From the NCBI GenBank assembly GCA_020200935.1, contig JAIVHR010000181.1:1-17031 (forward strand): DNA of 17,031 bases, in the 5' to 3' direction. This stretch comes from Sphingomonadales bacterium. GTDB taxonomy: Bacteria; Pseudomonadota; Alphaproteobacteria; Sphingomonadales; Sphingomonadaceae. Numbering within the stretch: position 1 is the stretch's first letter; each line of letters opens with the position of its first letter. Position numbers and translations under genes: made by a program. The notes beneath the pieces are model-generated. The model ran no database searches, was not told where the DNA came from, and saw only the letters and a list, made by a program, of their open reading frames with translations. This document shows positions 4,823-15,098 of this stretch, piece by piece.

Positions 4823-5069
4823 GAATCCTGCCCCGAGGCCGTGGCGCCCTCGGAAGGAATTTGCTGTCCTACATGCCATGGTTCGGCGTAGTCTGCCCGC
4901 ATGCATCGGCGATTCACAATACGGCAACGCTCCAGGGAGTAACGATCGATCCAATGTAGGAAATTATCTTCGCCGACATTGCGTTACCTTCGTTACCTTT
5001 GCCGACCCTGAGGACCGGGCGTCACACCGAATCGGTGGACAACGCGCTGGCGCCCGGACTCGGCGATTC
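4823..5069 (+). promoter_or_regulatory. GANTC cluster in the parE leader
   Basis: Five GANTC sites lie in the gap between the dioxygenase stop and the parE start: GAATC 4823-4827, GATTC 4911-4915, GAATC 5029-5033, GACTC 5057-5061 and GATTC 5065-5069. The last two are 3 bp apart and end 13 bp before the parE ATG. CcrM methylates GANTC, and GcrA, encoded in this window, acts at methylated GANTC promoters in Caulobacter. A tandem cgttacctt repeat (about 4982-4999) lies in the same leader. I see no clear -35/-10 pair. Confidence 0.45.
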
Positions 5070-5082
5070 CTATAGCGTCACC

Positions 5083-7065
5083 ATGACCGACCTGTTTTCC
5101 GGCTCTTCGGGGGGCGGCACCTCCGACGATTACGACGCTTCCACGATCGAGGTGCTCGAAGGGCTCGAGCCGGTGCGCCGGCGGCCGGGAATGTATATCG
5201 GCGGCACCGACGAGCGGGCGCTGCATCACCTCGCCGCCGAGGTGCTCGACAATGCGATGGACGAGGCGGTGGCCGGCCATGCCAACCGGATCGAGGTGAC
5301 GCTCGATATCGGCAACCGGCTGACGATCGCCGACAATGGCCGCGGCATCCCGATCGATCCGCATCCCAAATTCCCGAAGAAATCGGCGCTCGAGGTGATC
5401 CTGACGACGCTCCATTCGGGCGGCAAATTCTCCGACAAGGCCTATGCGACGTCGGGGGGCCTGCACGGCGTCGGGGTCAGCGTTGTCAACGCGCTGTCAA
5501 GCGACACCGAGGTCGAGGTGGCGAAGAACCGGGAGGTCTGGCGCCAGAGTTTTTCGCGCGGCGAGCCGACCTCGAAGCTGAAGAAGATCGGCGATACCCC
5601 CAACCGGCGCGGCACGACGCTGAGCTTCGTCCCCGATCCCGAGATCTTCGGCGGCAAGGCCGGTTTCAAGCCGGCGCGGCTCTACCGGCTCGCCCGCTCC
5701 AAGGCCTATCTCTTCGCCGGGGTCGAGATCCGCTGGAAATGCGCGCTCTCGCTGATCAAGGACGAGACGCCCGAAGAAGCGGTCTTCCAGTTCCCGGGCG
5801 GCCTCGCCGATCACCTCAGGGAGCAGCTCGGCGAGCGGGCGCAGGCGACCACCGACTTTTTCGCCGGCAAGCAGGATTTCCCCGATACCCAGGGTTCGGT
5901 CGAATGGGCGGTCGCCTGGCCGCTCTGGTCGGACGGCGTCTATAGCTATTATTGCAACACCATCCCGACCCGCGACGGCGGCACGCACGAGGCCGGCATC
6001 CGCGCCGCGCTGACCAAGGGTATCCGCGGCTTCGGCGAACTCACCGGCAACAAGAAGGCCAACGGCATCTCGGCCGAGGATATCGTCGGCGGCTGCGAGC
6101 TGATGCTCTCGGTATTCCTGCGCGACCCGCAATTCCAGAGCCAGACCAAGGATCGGATGACCAGCCCCGAGGCCGCGAGGCTGGTCGAGAATGCCGTCCG
6201 CGACCATTTCGACCATTTCCTCTCGGACAATATGGAGCGCGGCAAGGCGCTGCTTTCCTATGCGATGGAGCGGATGGAGGATCGGCTGCGGCGCAAGGCC
6301 GAGAAGGAGGTCAAGCGCAAGACCGCCACCTCGGCGCGCAAGCTGCGGCTTCCCGGCAAGCTCACCGACTGTTCGGAGGTCGGGCCCGAGGGCACCGAGC
6401 TGTTCATCGTCGAGGGCGACAGCGCCGGCGGATCGGCCAAGCAGGCGCGCGACCGCAAGACGCAGGCGGTGCTGCCGATCCGCGGCAAGATCCTCAACGT
6501 CGCCTCGGCGACACTCGCCAAGATCGGCGCCAACAGCGAGATCGCCGATATCGTCCTCGCGCTCGGCTGCGGCACGCGCGAGCATTGCGACACCGGGCAG
6601 CTGCGCTACGAACGCATCATCATCATGACCGACGCCGATGTCGACGGCGCGCATATCGCGACCCTGCTGATGACCTACTTCTTCCAGGAGATGGCGCCGC
6701 TCGTCGAGCAGGGCCACCTGTTCCTCGCGCGCCCGCCGCTCTATCGGCTGACCGCCGGCGGCAAGAGCCTCTACGCCCAGGACGATGCCGAGCGCGCCGA
6801 GATCGAGGCGAGCGTGTTCAAGGGCAGGAAGGTCGATGTCGCCCGCTTCAAGGGACTCGGCGAGATGAACCCGCAGCAATTGCGCGAGACGACAATGAAT
6901 CCGGCTACGCGGTCATTGCTGCGCGTCAAGCTGCCCGAGAGCTATCAGAAGCAGGCCGGCGTCAAGGATCTCGTCGACCGGCTGATGGGCCGCCACCCCG
7001 AACACCGCTTCGCCTTCATCCAGGCGAATGCCGCGAGCCTCGCCGAGGACGCGATCGATGCGTAG
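5083..7065 (+). CDS. parE: DNA topoisomerase IV subunit B
   Basis: 660 residues, type IIA topoisomerase ATPase subunit, which with ParC decatenates daughter chromosomes. The GHKL ATPase has EVLDNAMDEA (catalytic E53, N57), DNGRGIP (84-90) and the ATP lid GGLHGVGVS (125-133). The QTK loop lysine is K356. The TOPRIM domain has EGDSAGGSA (E444) and DADVDG (D517, D519, D521), the Mg-binding acidic residues. The short length without the extra GyrB insert, and RDRKTQAVLPIRGKILNV after EGDSAGG, point to ParE rather than GyrB. The start MTDLFSGSS at 5083 gives the expected N-terminus; in-frame ATG codons upstream (from 4999) add unconserved residues. The leader carries five GANTC sites. The stop is followed at once by a palindromic repeat. 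Confidence 0.95.
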   Translation: MTDLFSGSSGGGTSDDYDASTIEVLEGLEPVRRRPGMYIGGTDERALHHLAAEVLDNAMDEAVAGHANRIEVTLDIGNRLTIADNGRGIPIDPHPKFPKKSALEVILTTLHSGGKFSDKAYATSGGLHGVGVSVVNALSSDTEVEVAKNREVWRQSFSRGEPTSKLKKIGDTPNRRGTTLSFVPDPEIFGGKAGFKPARLYRLARSKAYLFAGVEIRWKCALSLIKDETPEEAVFQFPGGLADHLREQLGERAQATTDFFAGKQDFPDTQGSVEWAVAWPLWSDGVYSYYCNTIPTRDGGTHEAGIRAALTKGIRGFGELTGNKKANGISAEDIVGGCELMLSVFLRDPQFQSQTKDRMTSPEAARLVENAVRDHFDHFLSDNMERGKALLSYAMERMEDRLRRKAEKEVKRKTATSARKLRLPGKLTDCSEVGPEGTELFIVEGDSAGGSAKQARDRKTQAVLPIRGKILNVASATLAKIGANSEIADIVLALGCGTREHCDTGQLRYERIIIMTDADVDGAHIATLLMTYFFQEMAPLVEQGHLFLARPPLYRLTAGGKSLYAQDDAERAEIEASVFKGRKVDVARFKGLGEMNPQQLRETTMNPATRSLLRVKLPESYQKQAGVKDLVDRLMGRHPEHRFAFIQANAASLAEDAIDA

Positions 7066-7156
7066 GCGTCATCCCAGCGAAAGTCGGGATCCAAGGCCAC
7101 AGGCCGAGGCGGTTCAGTCTAACTACCCGAGATTCCAGCTTTCGCTGGCCTGACGC
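7066..7156. repeat. Imperfect inverted repeat filling the parE/pccA convergent gap
   Basis: The left arm (7066-7090, gcgtcatcccagcgaaagtc...) and right arm (7131-7156, ...agctttcgctggcctgacgc) are imperfect reverse complements separated by about 40 bp. The left arm begins at the base after the parE stop and the right arm ends one base before the pccA stop. It probably folds into a long hairpin in both transcripts and may serve as a bidirectional terminator. Confidence 0.8.
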
Positions 7157-7157
7157 C

Positions 7158-8923
7158 TCATTCAAACTCCATGATCACGTCGTCGGCGGCCAGGCTGGCG
7201 CCTTGCTCGGCATCGATGCGGGTCACCACGCCGGCCTTTTCGGCGCGCAGGATATTCTCCATCTTCATCGCCTCGACCGTGGCCAGCGGCTGGCCCGCCT
7301 CGACCTGATCGCCTTCGGAAACGTGCAGCGCGGTCACCAGCCCCGGCATCGGACAGATCAGCAGCTTGGAGAGATCGGGCGGCTCTTTCTCGATCATGTG
7401 CGCGGCGAGCGGGGCGATATGGGCGGGGAGGACGCGCGCCACGCGGGTCGCACCGCGGGTGGTCAGCTCGAAGCTGTAGCGGCCCGGCGCAATGCGCACG
7501 GCGATCGGCTCGCCAGCAAACTCGGCCTCGAGCAGCCTATCGCCGGGCGAATAGGCCATCGAGAGTTCCATCGCCTCGCCGTCGACATGGACGTCGTCGA
7601 GATCGACGGTGACGTCATAATCCGTATCGTCGATCCGGATGTGCCAGTCGCCCGGCGTCGGCGGCGGGCCGTTGAGCTGGCCGTCGATGCGACGCGCGCG
7701 GTCCGAATAGGCGGTGGCGACGAAGCCGGCGATCGCGGCGAGGCGCTTGAGCAAAGTCTGGTCGGCCGGCGCGCCCTCGAAGCCCTCGGGATATTCCTCG
7801 GCGATGAAATTGGTCGTGATCTCGCCCGATCGGAAGCGCGAATGCTGCATCAGCGCCGAGAGGAAATCGATATTGTGGCCCAGTCCCGTAATCTCGAAGC
7901 GGTCGAGCGCGGCGATCTGGAGATCGATCGCCTCCTCGCGCGTCGCGCCGTAGGTGACGAGCTTGGCGATCATCGGATCGTAGAACATCGACACCTCGCC
8001 GCCCTCGAGGACGCCGTCATCGATCCTGACCTGCGCTGTTCCCTCGGGCGGGTTGTACCGCACCAGCCGCCCGATCGAGGGCAGGAATCCGCGATAGGGG
8101 TCTTCGGCATAGACGCGATTCTCGATCGCCCAGCCGTTCATCTCGATATCGTCCTGCGCGAAATCGAGCCTTTCGCCCGCTGCCACCCGGATCATCTGCT
8201 CGACGAGATCGAGACCGGTGACGAACTCGGTCACCGGATGCTCGACCTGGAGCCGGGTGTTCATCTCGAGGAAGTAGAAGCTCTCGCCGGTCGGATCGTT
8301 GCCCGCAACGATCAGCTCGACCGTGCCCGCGCTGTGATAATCGACCGCTCGGGCCAGCACGACGGCCTGCTCGCCCATCTTCCTGCGCATTTCGGGCGTG
8401 ACGAAGGGCGACGGCGCCTCCTCGACGACCTTCTGATGGCGGCGCTGGATCGAACATTCGCGCTCGCCGAGATAGACGATGTTGCCATGCTGATCGCCGA
8501 GCACCTGGATTTCGATGTGGCGCGGCTGCTCGATGAATTTCTCGATGAAGACGCGGTCGTCGCCGAAGCTCGCCAGGCCCTCGCGCTTGGTCGCCTCGAA
8601 GCCGTCGCGGACATCCTCCTCCTTCCAGGCGAGCCGCATCCCCTTGCCGCCGCCGCCGGCCGAGGCCTTCATCATCACCGGATGGGATGGACGGCATCGG
8701 CACCGGTCCGTTTGCAGGCCTCAATGATCTTGTCGGCGAGGAGGTAGCTCTCGGCGGCCGGAGGCGGCCCGAGCCGCACCGCCTCGTCGGCCATCTCGAC
8801 ATGCGGGCTGCGCGCATCGGCGTCCGAATAGACGGCCACCGTCGCAATACCCATTTTCCTGGCGGTCCGCATGACGCGGCAGGCAATTTCACCGCGATTG
8901 GCGATCAGGATTTTATTGAACAT
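7158..8923 (-). pseudogene. pccA: Propionyl-CoA carboxylase biotin-carrying alpha subunit, internal deletion and frameshift
   Basis: Starts at the ATG 8923 with [20 protein letters not shown], the biotin carboxylase opening. The frame continues to GADAVHP at about 8684, then shifts: the next frame resumes at [15 protein letters not shown], the ATP-grasp glycine loop. About 70 residues that normally lie between (from HPGYGFLSEN to the residues before GYPVMIKAS) are absent, so roughly 215 nt are missing and the frame changes. Downstream everything is intact: ECSIQRRHQKVVEEAPS, EMNTRLQVEHPVTE, and a biotinyl domain with EAMKMEN, whose lysine (codon 7263-7265) is the usual 35 residues from the C-terminus. 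PccA carboxylates propionyl-CoA with PccB, which is not in the window. As written the gene cannot give an active carboxylase; either a recent pseudogene or an assembly error. The upstream secreted-protein gene ends 3 bp before the start, suggesting co-transcription. Confidence 0.85.
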
Positions 8924-10980: not shown

Positions 10981-11450
10981 TTAGTGCTCCGGAACGGTAA
11001 CCGCGCCCGATCGTCAGTCGAGTCATTGAGTGCGGTCAGCCGCTTCAAACTCACGCACCGCTGGCCGGTCCATTTGTCCGGAAGCAGACCGACCACGGGC
11101 TCTTCTGGACCATTATAGATTATCTCGCCGCTGCACTCATCGTAGTTGAAGTGGAAGACCAATAGATGGTCAGCCTTGGTATCTACTGGTCTGAAGGCTG
11201 GTCCCCGCCGCGTCCCGCTAGCCTTAATCTGAACAGAGCGACCGTCCGGCGCGTAACCATCAACGCCTTCGTTGCTTCGCCCCGTTAGCTCGAGTGCAAA
11301 CATCTCGGCCGCTACCGCCTCCCCCAAGTCTCCCACCAAATTCCCATCAAACGTAAACCTAAGATCATAATTCGAATAATGTTCCTTCAGCTTGTTGCGT
11401 GCTGAGACCAGTTCGCGAATGTGCGGAGGTAATTCAAAACGATCGGTCAC
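10977..11450 (-). CDS. DUF6998-type protein with restriction-endonuclease-like core
   Basis: 157 residues from a GTG start that overlaps the mutase stop by 4 bp (GTGA); its own stop overlaps the bioB start by 4 bp (ATGA). The segment [16 protein letters not shown], then [18 protein letters not shown] resembles a PD-(D/E)xK nuclease core with E44, D64 and Q74-x-K76 as candidate active-site residues. [21 protein letters not shown] and [12 protein letters not shown] follow. I recognise it as DUF6998-like from memory of the family; no function is established for it. No signal peptide or membrane segment is seen. G+C is about 54 % over 11041-11400, lower than bioB and the mutase, and one 60-nt stretch (11341-11400) has only 21 G/C. 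It looks like a foreign gene fitted into a coupled operon. Another possibility is a Holliday-junction or DNA-repair nuclease fold without restriction role. Confidence 0.75.
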
Positions 11451-13681
11451 TCAGCAGCCTCCTCCAACGGCGGCAGGTTATGGCCGAGCAGCTTCAACAC
11501 CTCGCCTGCGGCATCCACCAGATTCGTCCCCGGCCCGAAGATCGCCTGGACGCCGGCATCGCGGAGGAACTGGTAATCCTGCTGCGGGATGACGCCGCCG
11601 GCGATCACCTTGATGTCGTCGCGGCCGGTGTCCTTGAGTTTCTGGATAAGCTCCGGAATTAGCGATTTATGCCCCGCGGCAAGGCTCGAAGCACCGATCA
11701 CGTCGACGTCATTTTCAATGGCATCCTTCGCGGTTTCCTCGGGCGTCTGGAAAAGCGGACCCGAGACGATCTCGAAGCCGAGATCGGCGAAGGCGGATGC
11801 GACGAGATTGGCGCCGCGATCGTGCCCGTCCTGCCCCATCTTGGCGACCATCAACCGTGGCTTGCGCCCGAGCCGCCGCTCGACCGCCTCGACCCCCTGC
11901 TCGGCGCGCTCCCATACCGGGTCGCCCTTGTACGCGCCGCCATAGACGCCGCTGACCGGCGTCGGACGCGTATCGTAGCGGCCGAAAGCGTCTTCCATCG
12001 CGCTCGAAATCTCGCCGAGCGTGCAGCGCGCGCGCGCGCATTCGATCGCGAGGGCAAGGAGGTTCGTCTCCATCCCCGTTCGGGCTGAGCTTGTCGAAGC
12101 CCTGCTCTTCTCTTTCTCGTCCGATGGAGAAAAGGACAGCCCTTCGGCAGGCTCAGGGCGAACGGAGTTTTGTTTGGCACCCTCGGTTAGCGCCTTGAGC
12201 GCCGCCTGCGCCTTGTCCTCGTCACGCTCGCTCCGCGTCTTCTCGATCCGCGCGATCTGGTCGCGGCGGACGCGGGCCGTATCGATATCGAGGAACTCGA
12301 TCTCGTCCTGGGTGTCGCGGCGATATCTGTTGACGCCGACGATCACCGTCTCGCCGCGATCGACGGCGGCGGCCTTGGCGGCGGCCGCCTCCTCGATATG
12401 GCGCTTGGGGAGACCCTCGGCGACCGCCCTGGTCATGCCGCCATGCGCCTCGACCTCCTCGATCAGCTCCCAGGCCTTGTCGGCGAGCTGCTGGGTCAAT
12501 TGTTCGACATAATAGGAGCCGCCCAAGGGATCGGCGACATTGGCGATGCCGCTCTCCTCGGCGAGGATCAACTGGGTGTTGCGCGCGATGCGGGCCGAAC
12601 GGTCGGTCGGTAGCGCGACGGCCTCGTCGAAGCTGTTGGTGTGGAGGCTCTGCGTCCCGCCCAGCGTCGCCGCCATCGCCTCGATCGTCGTGCGGACGAT
12701 GTTGTTATAGGGATCCTGCTCGGTCAGGCTGACGCCGCTCGTCTGGCAATGGGTGCGCAGCATCTTGGATTTGGGGTCCTTCGCGCTGAAATCCTCCATG
12801 ATCGAATGCCAGAGCTTCCGCGCGGCGCGCAGCTTGGCGACCTCCATGAAGAAATTCATACCGATGCCGAAAAAGAAACTCAGCCGCGGGGCAAAGCTGT
12901 CGACCGGCAGGCCGCGCGCCATCGCAACGCGGACATATTCCATCCCGTCGGCCAGCGTGTAGGCGAGCTCCTGCACCGCCGTCGCCCCGGCTTCGTGCAT
13001 GTGATAGCCGCTGATCGAGATCGAGTTGAAGCGCGGCATGTGCTCGCTGGTATAACCGATGATGTCGGCGACGATCCGCATCGAGGGTTCGGGCGGATAG
13101 ATATAGGTGTTGCGGACCATGAACTCCTTGAGGATGTCGTTCTGGATCGTCCCCGACAGATCCTTCTGCGCGACCCCCTGCTCCTCCGCCGCGACGATGT
13201 AAAAGGCCATCACCGGGATCACCGCGCCGTTCATCGTCATCGACACGCTCATCTCGTCGAGCGGGATCCGGTCGAACAGGATCTGCATGTCGGCCAGCGT
13301 GTCGATCGCCACCCCCGCCTTGCCGACATCGCCGGTGACGCGCGGGTGATCGCTGTCGTAACCGCGATGGGTAGCGAGATCGAAGGCGACCGACAGGCCC
13401 TTCTGCCCCATCGCGAGGTTGCGCCGATAGAAGGCGTTCGATTCCTCGGCCGTCGAGAAACCGGCATATTGCCGGATCGTCCAGGGCCGCCCGGTATACA
13501 TCGAGGCATAGGGTCCGCGGGTATAGGGCTCGAAACCGGGAAGCCCCGGGTCGAGCGCGTCCTCGGCCGAATAGACGGGCCGGACGGGAATCCCCTCGGG
13601 CGTCTCCCACGTCAGATCGCGCCCCTTCACCTCCTTGGCGGCGCGCTCCTGCCAGTCGGATTTGGTGGGTTTGTCGGACAT
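11447..13681 (-). CDS. scpA: Methylmalonyl-CoA mutase, with an in-frame palindromic repeat
   Basis: 744 residues. It converts (R)-methylmalonyl-CoA to succinyl-CoA with adenosylcobalamin in the cytosol. The N-terminal TIM barrel has [20 protein letters not shown] (CoA channel, substrate Tyr), [16 protein letters not shown], and [13 protein letters not shown] with H227 matching the catalytic His244 of Propionibacterium. The C-terminal B12 domain has GQDGHDRG, whose H620 is the cobalt ligand, and [14 protein letters not shown]. Between [10 protein letters not shown] and [12 protein letters not shown] the family normally has only a few residues; here about 30 extra residues (about 506-536, [10 protein letters not shown]...ASTSSARTG) are encoded by a palindromic repeat (12076-12165) that keeps the frame. 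The lengthened linker lies between the two domains and may be tolerated. The gene heads a coupled string: mutase, DUF6998-type gene, bioB. The start [10 protein letters not shown] fits the family. Confidence 0.93.
12076..12165. repeat. Palindromic repeat inside the methylmalonyl-CoA mutase gene
   Basis: The arms 12076-12103 (ccgttcgggctgagcttgtc...) and 12138-12165 (...aggctcagggcgaacgg) are 28-nt imperfect reverse complements with about 6 mismatches, around a 34-nt loop. The sequence type is a common sphingomonad intergenic repeat. Here it is read in frame as coding sequence on the minus strand and gives the peptides VRPEPAEG and STSSARTG. Confidence 0.88.
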
Positions 13682-13882: not shown

Positions 13883-14438
13883 TCACTCCCCCGTAAATTC
13901 GGGCTTTTCCTTCTTGAGGAAGGCCACCGCGCCGATCACCGCGTCCTGGCTGTTGCCGGCTTCGCGCTGAGCGTTCGCCTCGGCATCAAGCGCGTCGCCG
14001 AAATCGCGATCGAGATTGCCGGCCGCGAGACGCCGCATCAGCCCGAGCGCCTTGGTCGGCCCCCTGGCCAGCCGCTCGGCCAGCGCGCGCGCCTCGTCGA
14101 TCAACGCATCATCCTCGACGACGCGGGAGACGAGCCCCCATTCGGCGGCCCTTTTGGCGCCGATCTTCTCGCCGAGCATCATCATTTCGAAGGCGCGTGC
14201 TTTGCCGACGAGCCGAGCTGCGGTCGCGCCCGCCCGCCAGATCGGCGCCCGAACAGAAAGCCCGCCCCTCGCCGGTCATCAACAGGCAGCGCGCGCCTTC
14301 GCCCAGCGCCTCGTCGCAGGCGGCGACGATCTCGTCGGCCATGCCGATCGGCGCCGCGTTGAGGCGTTCCGGGCGGTTGAGGGTGATCGTCGCGACATTG
14401 TCGGCGATATCGAGCTTGATGGTTTCGTAATCGGCCAT
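13883..14438 (-). pseudogene. Enoyl-CoA hydratase/isomerase family, internal deletion and frameshift
   Basis: Starts at the ATG 14438 (MADYETIKLDIADNVATITL) behind a GAGGAG Shine-Dalgarno. The crotonase N-terminus continues NRPERLNAAPIGMADEI and ends at EGRAFCSGADLAGG near 14235. The other frame resumes with ARLVGKARAFEMMMLGEKIG near 14215 and continues cleanly to FLKKEKPEFTGE. In PaaG-like crotonases roughly 75-80 residues lie between these points, including the GAAAGVG loop and the catalytic region, so about 230 nt are missing and the frame is changed. The remaining 185 codons cannot form an active enzyme. Intact relatives hydrate enoyl-CoA in fatty-acid or phenylacetate breakdown, consistent with feeding propionyl-CoA metabolism. 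Recent pseudogene or assembly error. Confidence 0.82.
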
Positions 14439-14507
14439 GGCGGAGCTCCTCGGGTTTACGTTTGCGTCAAGCGTGGCGGAGTGAGGCATGGCGATCAAGC
14501 ACAAAAT

Positions 14508-14683
14508 CCTCTCCCTTCAAGGGAGAGGACGGCGAGGCAACGCCGAGCCCGGTGAGGGTGCAGAGCGAGCGGAAGCGAGCGTGAAGGCGAAGGGCACCTC
14601 CCTCGCAATTACGCTCGCTAACGCTCGCTCTGCCCCCTCTCCTGCCGACTACACCGGCTTTCCTCTCCCCTGAAGGGGAGAGG
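14508..14683. repeat. Compound palindromic repeat between the epimerase and enoyl-CoA hydratase genes
   Basis: The outer hairpins are cctctccc/gggagagg with a ttcaa loop (about 14508-14528) and cctctcccc/ggggagagg with a tgaa loop (14662-14683). Between them is gagcgagcggaagcgagcgt and, inverted, acgctcgctaacgctcgctc. It resembles the 13740-13881 element in its cctctccc hairpins. It fills most of the 249-bp gap 14439-14687 and ends 4 bp before the epimerase stop, so it may act as its terminator. No gene is seen in the gap. Confidence 0.8.
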
Positions 14684-14687
14684 GAAT

Positions 14688-15098
14688 CTATTTCGGCGTT
14701 TCCATGATCTCGGTCAGGACGCCGCCCATGTCCTTGGGATGGACGAAGAAGATCAGGGTACCGTGCGCGCCGACCCGGGGTTCGCCGAGCACGCGCTTGC
14801 CCATCGCCTCGAACTCCTCCTTCGCCGCATGGATGTTGGGCACCTCGAAGCACAGATGATGCTGGCCGCCTTGCGGATTGGCCTCGAGGAAGCCGGCGAT
14901 CGGCGAATCCGCGCCGAGCGGCTCGATCAGCTCGATCTGCGTGTTGGGCGTATCGACGAAGCAGACCTTCACCCCCTGCGAGGGCATGTCGAAGGGATCG
15001 TGGATCTTGGTCGCGCCCATCACGTCGCGCCAGAAACCGATGCTGTCTTCGATCGAAGGCGTCGCGACGCCGACATGGTTGAGCGGTCCGAGTTTCAT
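14688..15098 (-). CDS. mce: Methylmalonyl-CoA epimerase
   Basis: 136 residues, VOC/glyoxalase fold. It interconverts (S)- and (R)-methylmalonyl-CoA between the carboxylase and the mutase. The two-module fold is visible: LNHVGVATPSIEDSIGFW with metal ligand H8, TQIELIEPLG with a Glu ligand, GGQHHLCFEV with H80/H81, and GVLTEIMETP with E130. The length is normal for the family. The ATG overlaps the stop of the DUF808 gene by 4 bp (ATGA), so the two are translationally coupled. Intact, in contrast to its neighbours on both sides. It is the only known partner between pccA and the mutase in this cluster, which supports the pathway assignment. Confidence 0.95.
   Translation of the reverse strand: MKLGPLNHVGVATPSIEDSIGFWRDVMGATKIHDPFDMPSQGVKVCFVDTPNTQIELIEPLGADSPIAGFLEANPQGGQHHLCFEVPNIHAAKEEFEAMGKRVLGEPRVGAHGTLIFFVHPKDMGGVLTEIMETPK

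Follow-up and report, generated by a model that had tools for sequence, protein, structure and literature searches.

The methylmalonyl-CoA mutase gene of a sphingomonad carries a 90-nt imperfect palindrome by which the enzyme, intact in all other respects, is extended in frame by 33 residues. The palindrome is a copy of a repeat that is dispersed in the genome, and in other genera the same loop of the mutase is filled by elements of different sequence types. We consider it very likely that palindromes resident in these genomes insert widely and that selection keeps those which lie in frame in this tolerant loop. What looks new is the recurrence, with different element types at one mutase loop across genera. 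The window, that is, the whole stretch of 17,031 nucleotides that was analysed, is contig C210 of genome G000, a draft of 2.1 Mb in 343 contigs that is 66% complete. The features under study are as follows.

11447..13681, minus strand: methylmalonyl-CoA mutase, 744 aa, intact frame with insert (ORF list; Pfam; NCBIfam; pN/pS)
12065..12172, minus strand: extended loop, codons 504-539 (alignment with relatives; AlphaFold pLDDT <50 at 507-537)
12076..12165, no strand: imperfect palindrome, type A element, consisting of two inverted arms and a loop (fold; repeat cores 12084-12099 and 12142-12157)
12076..12099, plus strand: left arm, with the exact core GCTGAGCTTGTCGAAG at 12084-12099
12142..12165, minus strand: right arm, with the core at 12142-12157 (3 mismatches)

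The mutase reaches 1202 bits against the NCBIfam model PRK09426 (cut-off 876), and Pfam assigns residues 26-567 to MM_CoA_mutase and 609-724 to B12-binding. The preliminary description of this DNA had reported a palindrome inside an otherwise intact mutase frame. This was confirmed: the frame is open over its 744 residues, and the palindrome, as single-stranded DNA, folds with -24.9 kcal/mol, compared to a mean of -15.4 kcal/mol upon shuffling (z -3.67; none of 200 shuffles was equally good). In this fold, 12076-12082 pair with 12159-12165 and 12085-12099 with 12142-12156. At the RNA level, 3 of 12 windows of the same length from this gene reach or exceed the stability of the insert, so that the identity of the repeat is stronger evidence than its folding. 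The whole element lies within an intact, conserved coding frame, which is the general kind of the in-frame intragenic palindromic repeat.

The insert was originally described as about 30 residues (506-536) located precisely at the linker that precedes the B12 domain. That it is in frame stands, while its extent had to be revised: the loop spans residues 504-539 and has 36 residues in the window mutase versus 3 in same-genus relatives, which gives 33 extra residues. Its position had to be revised as well, as Pfam and AlphaFold place the site about 70 residues earlier. The AlphaFold model (24-sequence alignment, mean pLDDT 77.5) has a helix at 488-504, a pLDDT below 50 at 507-537, a second helix at 541-550 and the first strand of the B12 domain at 609. 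According to this model, the insert lies in a turn that joins two helices within the Pfam mutase domain. Six further short segments of the model also have a pLDDT below 50, so that low confidence by itself is no proof of disorder. Human MMUT can be aligned on both sides of the insert and is contiguous across the insert point.

An alignment with mutases from related genomes had been suggested to see if only this strain has the insert. Within the genus (ten genomes including the window's own), this is the case: none of the nine orthologues read from same-genus relatives has an insert.

The repeat of the window (type A) had been expected to occur elsewhere in the genome, and it does. With up to 2 mismatches, the core GCTGAGCTTGTCGAAG has 148 matches in the own genome, compared to 10 for the reversed control. 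These form at least 76 clusters in 70 loci, and 45 of the clusters are paired inverted arms. Type A is thus a dispersed, many-copy repeat. A profile of 89 arm ends from the own genome has CCGTT(C/A)G in common ahead of the core. Beyond the element, no base exceeds 0.35 bits in this profile, so that no strong target motif is seen.

In at least 59 frames, a type A copy is at least 40 codons away from both ends. Mutase apart, a Pfam scan covered the 45 of these that have 170 codons or more. No family was assigned to 31, the copy is upstream of the domain in 9, and 2 have a weak single core within a domain. The latter (Pro_dh in L010 and Fasciclin in L350) were taken to be chance matches. The other three have an internal in-frame copy, so that the search for additional in-frame copies, as originally proposed, was successful. 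One is in an isoleucyl-tRNA synthetase-like gene (L315), one in a radical-SAM methylthiotransferase gene (L336) and a less certain one in a gene for an ATP-dependent DNA ligase (L025), for which the N-terminal domain match is below its cut-off. We take L315 to be an isoleucyl-tRNA synthetase (IleRS) and L336 to be a methylthiotransferase, based on their Pfam domains and on general knowledge.

The own genome encodes one REP-associated tyrosine transposase (RAYT) (L411, 1462-2124; NF047646 with 82.4 bits, cut-off 80). A RAYT as the mobiliser of type A is unsupported. No type A core with up to 3 mismatches was found in the 3.3-kb locus around this gene, which is the only PF01797 gene found in this 66% complete genome. 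In addition, 12 of 14 genomes tested lack a PF01797 match, among them the carriers of type A inserts G023, G035, G101 and G161.

Palindromic repeats within coding regions have precedents. E. lithoralis and S. alaskensis are among the species concerned, and we take both to be sphingomonads. Intragenic REPs are reported for tRNA synthetase and truB genes of these two species in the parts of PMC3733652 (2013) considered here. There, REPs (GTAG and CGTC superfamilies) are described as mostly intergenic, with some being wholly inside coding regions, in many bacteria. The same parts report different REPs at about one recB site in two Xanthomonas species, and the authors already suggested that inserts in flexible linkers or loops are neutral. 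Thus, as far as these parts go, in-frame palindromic repeats outside Rickettsia are already known, and the proposal that the mutase may be a natural example of a protein-coding repeat outside that genus was preceded by this 2013 paper. The facts given in the preliminary description were right, but its position for the insert was slightly inaccurate and its novelty was overstated. The parts of PMC3733652 considered do not contain a case of several families filling one loop again and again in many genera. Nor did we find this in the open-licence literature, and no paper on a mutase insertion hotspot was found in open-licence PMC literature.

Type A resembles the REPs of PMC3733652, as far as described in these parts, in being a short palindrome with some intragenic copies, including those in sphingomonad genes. 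It differs in its ends, as the unpaired GTAG or CGTC end tag is not seen among the 89 arm ends profiled. With the REPIN/RAYT systems (PMC3116915 and PMC2817692), it shares genome-dispersed paired inverted arms, but it differs in that element copies do not flank the RAYT gene within the 3.3-kb locus. Having neither such a tag nor a tie to the only RAYT gene found, type A was not filed in the REP/REPIN families. According to PMC10969869 and PMC3733652, the Rickettsia palindromic elements (RPE) are also in-frame elements that add a peptide to proteins. They have, however, about 150 bp versus the 90 bp of the window element, a comparison made by description rather than by sequence.

To place the insert in a wider context, the mutase was analyzed across the family. 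A mutase anchor is present in 125 of 139 genomes, and the loop was read in 119 of these, including the window's genome (the others being G111, G080, G074, G153, G034 and G129; further mutase copies in G179, G203, G225 and G232 were left out). The loop is of ordinary length in 89 genomes, longer by 4 residues in 8, and has 24-79 extra residues in 22. When the DNA was inspected by eye, 21 of these 22 inserts look derived from palindromic elements, with three or more sequence types among them; one of the 21, that of L036, is decayed and at best a palindrome remnant. By the same inspection, 11 inserts were assigned to type A, 3 to type B, 7 to type C and 1 to type D. Types A2 and C' were added from scans of the genus groups g75 and g15. 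The types are defined as follows.

Type A: the repeat of the window, core GCTGAGCTTGTCGAAG
Type A2: GAGCGAAGTCGAGGG
Type B: AGTCCCCGCGCAGGCGGGGAC
Type C: TCCTCCCC...GGGGAGGA
Type C': CCCTTCAGGGGAGGGGGTTGGGG
Type D: non-palindromic peptide, core GRDEKGVPLPPS

By eye, types A, B and C look mutually unrelated, while a relationship is possible between A2 and A and between C' and C. Of the loci whose loop could be read, 6 of 24 have an insert in g75 (A 1, A2 1, C 4, one C being decayed) and 13 of 29 in g15 (A 3, B 1, C' 2, D 7); each of these counts includes two loci from the family sample. Among the best 80 named loci listed, 4 have inserts, and all of these have sphingomonad titles (L162; L163 from Sphingomonas yabuuchiae NS355; L167 from S. 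segetis YJ09; and L176). The others are of ordinary or nearly ordinary length (75) or unreadable (1).

The insert is not a unique oddity, as five relatives from other genera also carry inserts. Neither are all inserts palindromic. Type D is an insert of about 32 residues in the same mutase loop of L286, L287, L288, L290, L291, L292 and L296 (all g15) and of L133 (g99), thus found at 8 tips, and 37 of 96 control windows are equally stable; the L036 insert is decayed.

The loop of L105 contains approximately three tandem in-frame copies of a type A-like unit, with 79 extra residues.

Within the enzyme, no second place of this kind was seen. Three alignments with 723, 721 and 718 match columns show no other insert of at least 5 residues inside the mutase between column 11 and the last match column. 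Three N-terminal runs of 5-6 inserted residues are at columns 4, 8 and 11, where the start is unresolved. This survey uses the best open frame per locus, up to the last match column, a procedure that frame-breaking inserts would escape.

The resident repeats of other genomes were also considered. In the three genomes with a type B insert, the type B core has 16, 27 and 4 matches (with the mutase copy counted); it has none in the seven other genomes tested, and the reversed control has none in all ten. Type C is scarce in the stretch examined, with one further copy in 400 kb of G086, so that the evidence for it as a resident element is thin.

A FastTree tree was computed for 178 mutase tips with the loop excluded, leaving out 22 duplicate or partial loci (of which L262, L263, L264 and L299 have a readable, uninserted loop). 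The minimum is 30 changes when all states are considered and 23 for presence or absence of a palindrome (type D left out); some branches are weak and gain cannot be separated from loss, so that the 23 changes are indicative. For the individual types, the minimum is 12 changes for the 13 tips with type A, 3 for 3 tips (B), 9 for 10 (C), 2 for 2 (C'), 1 for 1 (A2) and 4 for 8 (D). The firm part of the recurrence is that close relatives hold different elements or differ in insert presence. Two sister species from g75 have different types (L064 type A, L065 type C, distance 0.057), and presence differs in the close pairs L110/L101 (g66, 0.036) and L293/L279 (g15, 0.059).

L034 and L084 carry a nearly identical insert; they are from genomes of different genus groups and are grouped on the tree (distance 0.024). 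The likeness of this single pair may be due to conversion or transfer.

The mutase was expected to survive the insert, and the data agree: its frame is open and its pN/pS is 0.18 against each of four relatives. Judged by these ratios, the window gene is clearly constrained, and the insert-bearing genes are under purifying selection. Between uninserted relatives, pN/pS is 0.17 for one pair and 0.10 for the other (L040 and L042); the latter value means that a slight relaxation in the window gene is possible. Seven other triplets range from 0.12 to 0.31. The inserts themselves behave differently according to type. In type B inserts, pN is close to pS or larger, which is expected for elements rather than for a conserved peptide and speaks against a protein constraint. 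In type D, pN is smaller than pS in 15 of 15 pairs, with a constraint weaker than in the rest of the gene. In the L034/L084 insert, there are no synonymous differences over about 24 sites, compared to 20% in the rest of the gene.

The structure of the inserts was compared to control windows of the same length from the same gene. Windows that match the insert in stability are absent for A2 (0 of 12), B (0 of 36) and C' (0 of 36) and rare for C (1 of 156). They are more frequent for A (28 of 156; 3 of 12 for the window insert) and for D (37 of 96).

Ahead of the next helix (NLL motif), the pattern x-[DE]-[TNR]-N is present in 15 of 37 inserted versus 8 of 140 uninserted sequences (140 of 141 uninserted tips, one having no readable motif); it occurs with types A, C and D, and the tips are not independent. 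This enrichment is perhaps a helix cap.

Two other enzymes with type A copies were aligned for 30 loci each (from 69 matching genomes for IleRS and 71 for the methylthiotransferase). In both, a few positions repeatedly hold repeat-like inserts, which are of several types: columns about 337-340, 490 and 868 in the IleRS-like proteins, and about 169 and 456 in the methylthiotransferases. Ten of these inserts were folded, in this case without control windows, and all ten form a hairpin. The length of IleRS also varies at columns 284-311 without evident repeats, so that the mutase loop is the cleaner example.

The IleRS-like gene of the own genome (L315, contig C31) has three repeat-like in-frame inserts of different types.

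We propose that a short palindromic repeat, of which this sphingomonad genome harbours many copies, would have inserted into the mutase gene, presumably by transposition, and that the copy seen is one that preserved the frame. The net gain is 99 nt, and the span from core to core is 74 nt, which is not a multiple of three; the difference is thus made up by flanking bases. The peptide is presumably translated. It would be kept because it is probably disordered and lies in a turn between two helices, a position that appears to be the sole inner place where the mutase accepts long inserts, with the added residues being probably neutral. In other lineages, the same loop would have been filled repeatedly by different palindromic families, and their diversity at one loop indicates that the shared position reflects tolerance of the protein more than a choice of the DNA target.

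An assembly error is very improbable. Although the genome is a draft in 343 contigs and repeats are common points of misassembly, the insert is in mid-contig with the mutase frame continuing on both sides, and comparable inserts occur in relatives with 1 to 6 contigs and a completeness of 99-100% (e.g., G023, G086, G135 and G161). If the elements chose the DNA sequence encoded at the loop, insertion machinery rather than selection would explain the position. This would fit with a position that varies by no more than a few residues among the inserts read and with a weak C/A-rich context ahead of the A elements (up to 0.35 bits per base), but the at least three types at one site (A, B and C) look unrelated by eye, the codons at the insertion point vary among uninserted genes, and sites are reused in the two other enzymes as well, which makes target preference quite doubtful. 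The mutase loop did not yield a clean empty site with a target duplication, nor is a target-site duplication readable there (without L279). Where an insert is present, the codons at the insertion site can no longer be aligned, and the length of some inserts exceeds that of the palindrome.

The near-identical insert of L034 and L084 across genus groups, and the occurrence of type D in seven g15 loci and one g99 locus, would be accounted for if there had been just one or a few ancient insertions, or if the gene or its loop had been transferred, with loss, conversion or replacement later on. We consider this unlikely, given types A and C in the sister species of g75, the presence of A, B, C' and D all within g15, the close pairs that differ in insert presence, and the match between resident and inserted type for B. 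It is similarly improbable that an mRNA hairpin or the added peptide is selected, e.g., for a translation pause between folding units or for altered enzyme contacts. The unchanged synonymous sites of the L034/L084 insert, the conserved peptide core of type D and the x-[DE]-[TNR]-N enrichment in inserted genes, with its non-independent tips, point in this direction, but 97 of 119 family genomes do without a long insert, type B inserts show no sign of protein constraint, type D inserts are not more structured than their control windows, and 3 of 12 windows of its gene match the window insert. Resident palindromes that pass a selective filter in a tolerant loop remain the preferred explanation. 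It is tempting to speculate that the loop does more than tolerate its inserts and that the hairpin or peptide has acquired a use in some lineages, as synonymous sites are unchanged in L034/L084 and the type D peptide is conserved. Mobile palindromes would then have presented a central enzyme time and again with a candidate for a new segment at a fixed position, which in some cases was adopted; we rate this as rather unlikely.

The pattern can be read as a natural insertion scan, in which different elements mark a mutase loop that accepts long foreign peptides; IleRS and the methylthiotransferase add a few further accepting places which are less cleanly marked. It now becomes testable if selection does no more than filter such repeats or if some of them turn into useful protein, which the work on Rickettsia and on REPs had left open. 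For genome annotation, peptides like VRPEPVEG...STSSARTG inside conserved enzymes are likely to be repeat-derived.

The window contains two further inverted structures. At 7064-7158, at the end of the 4999-7065 frame, there is a second palindrome with 28-nt arms that are 82% complementary and 39 nt apart. Its sequence, CGTCATCCCAGCGAAAG, probably resembles a CGTC-type REP. At 14551-14642, between the 14109-14504 and 14688-15098 frames, there is an inverted repeat with 43-nt arms that are 81% complementary and 6 nt apart.
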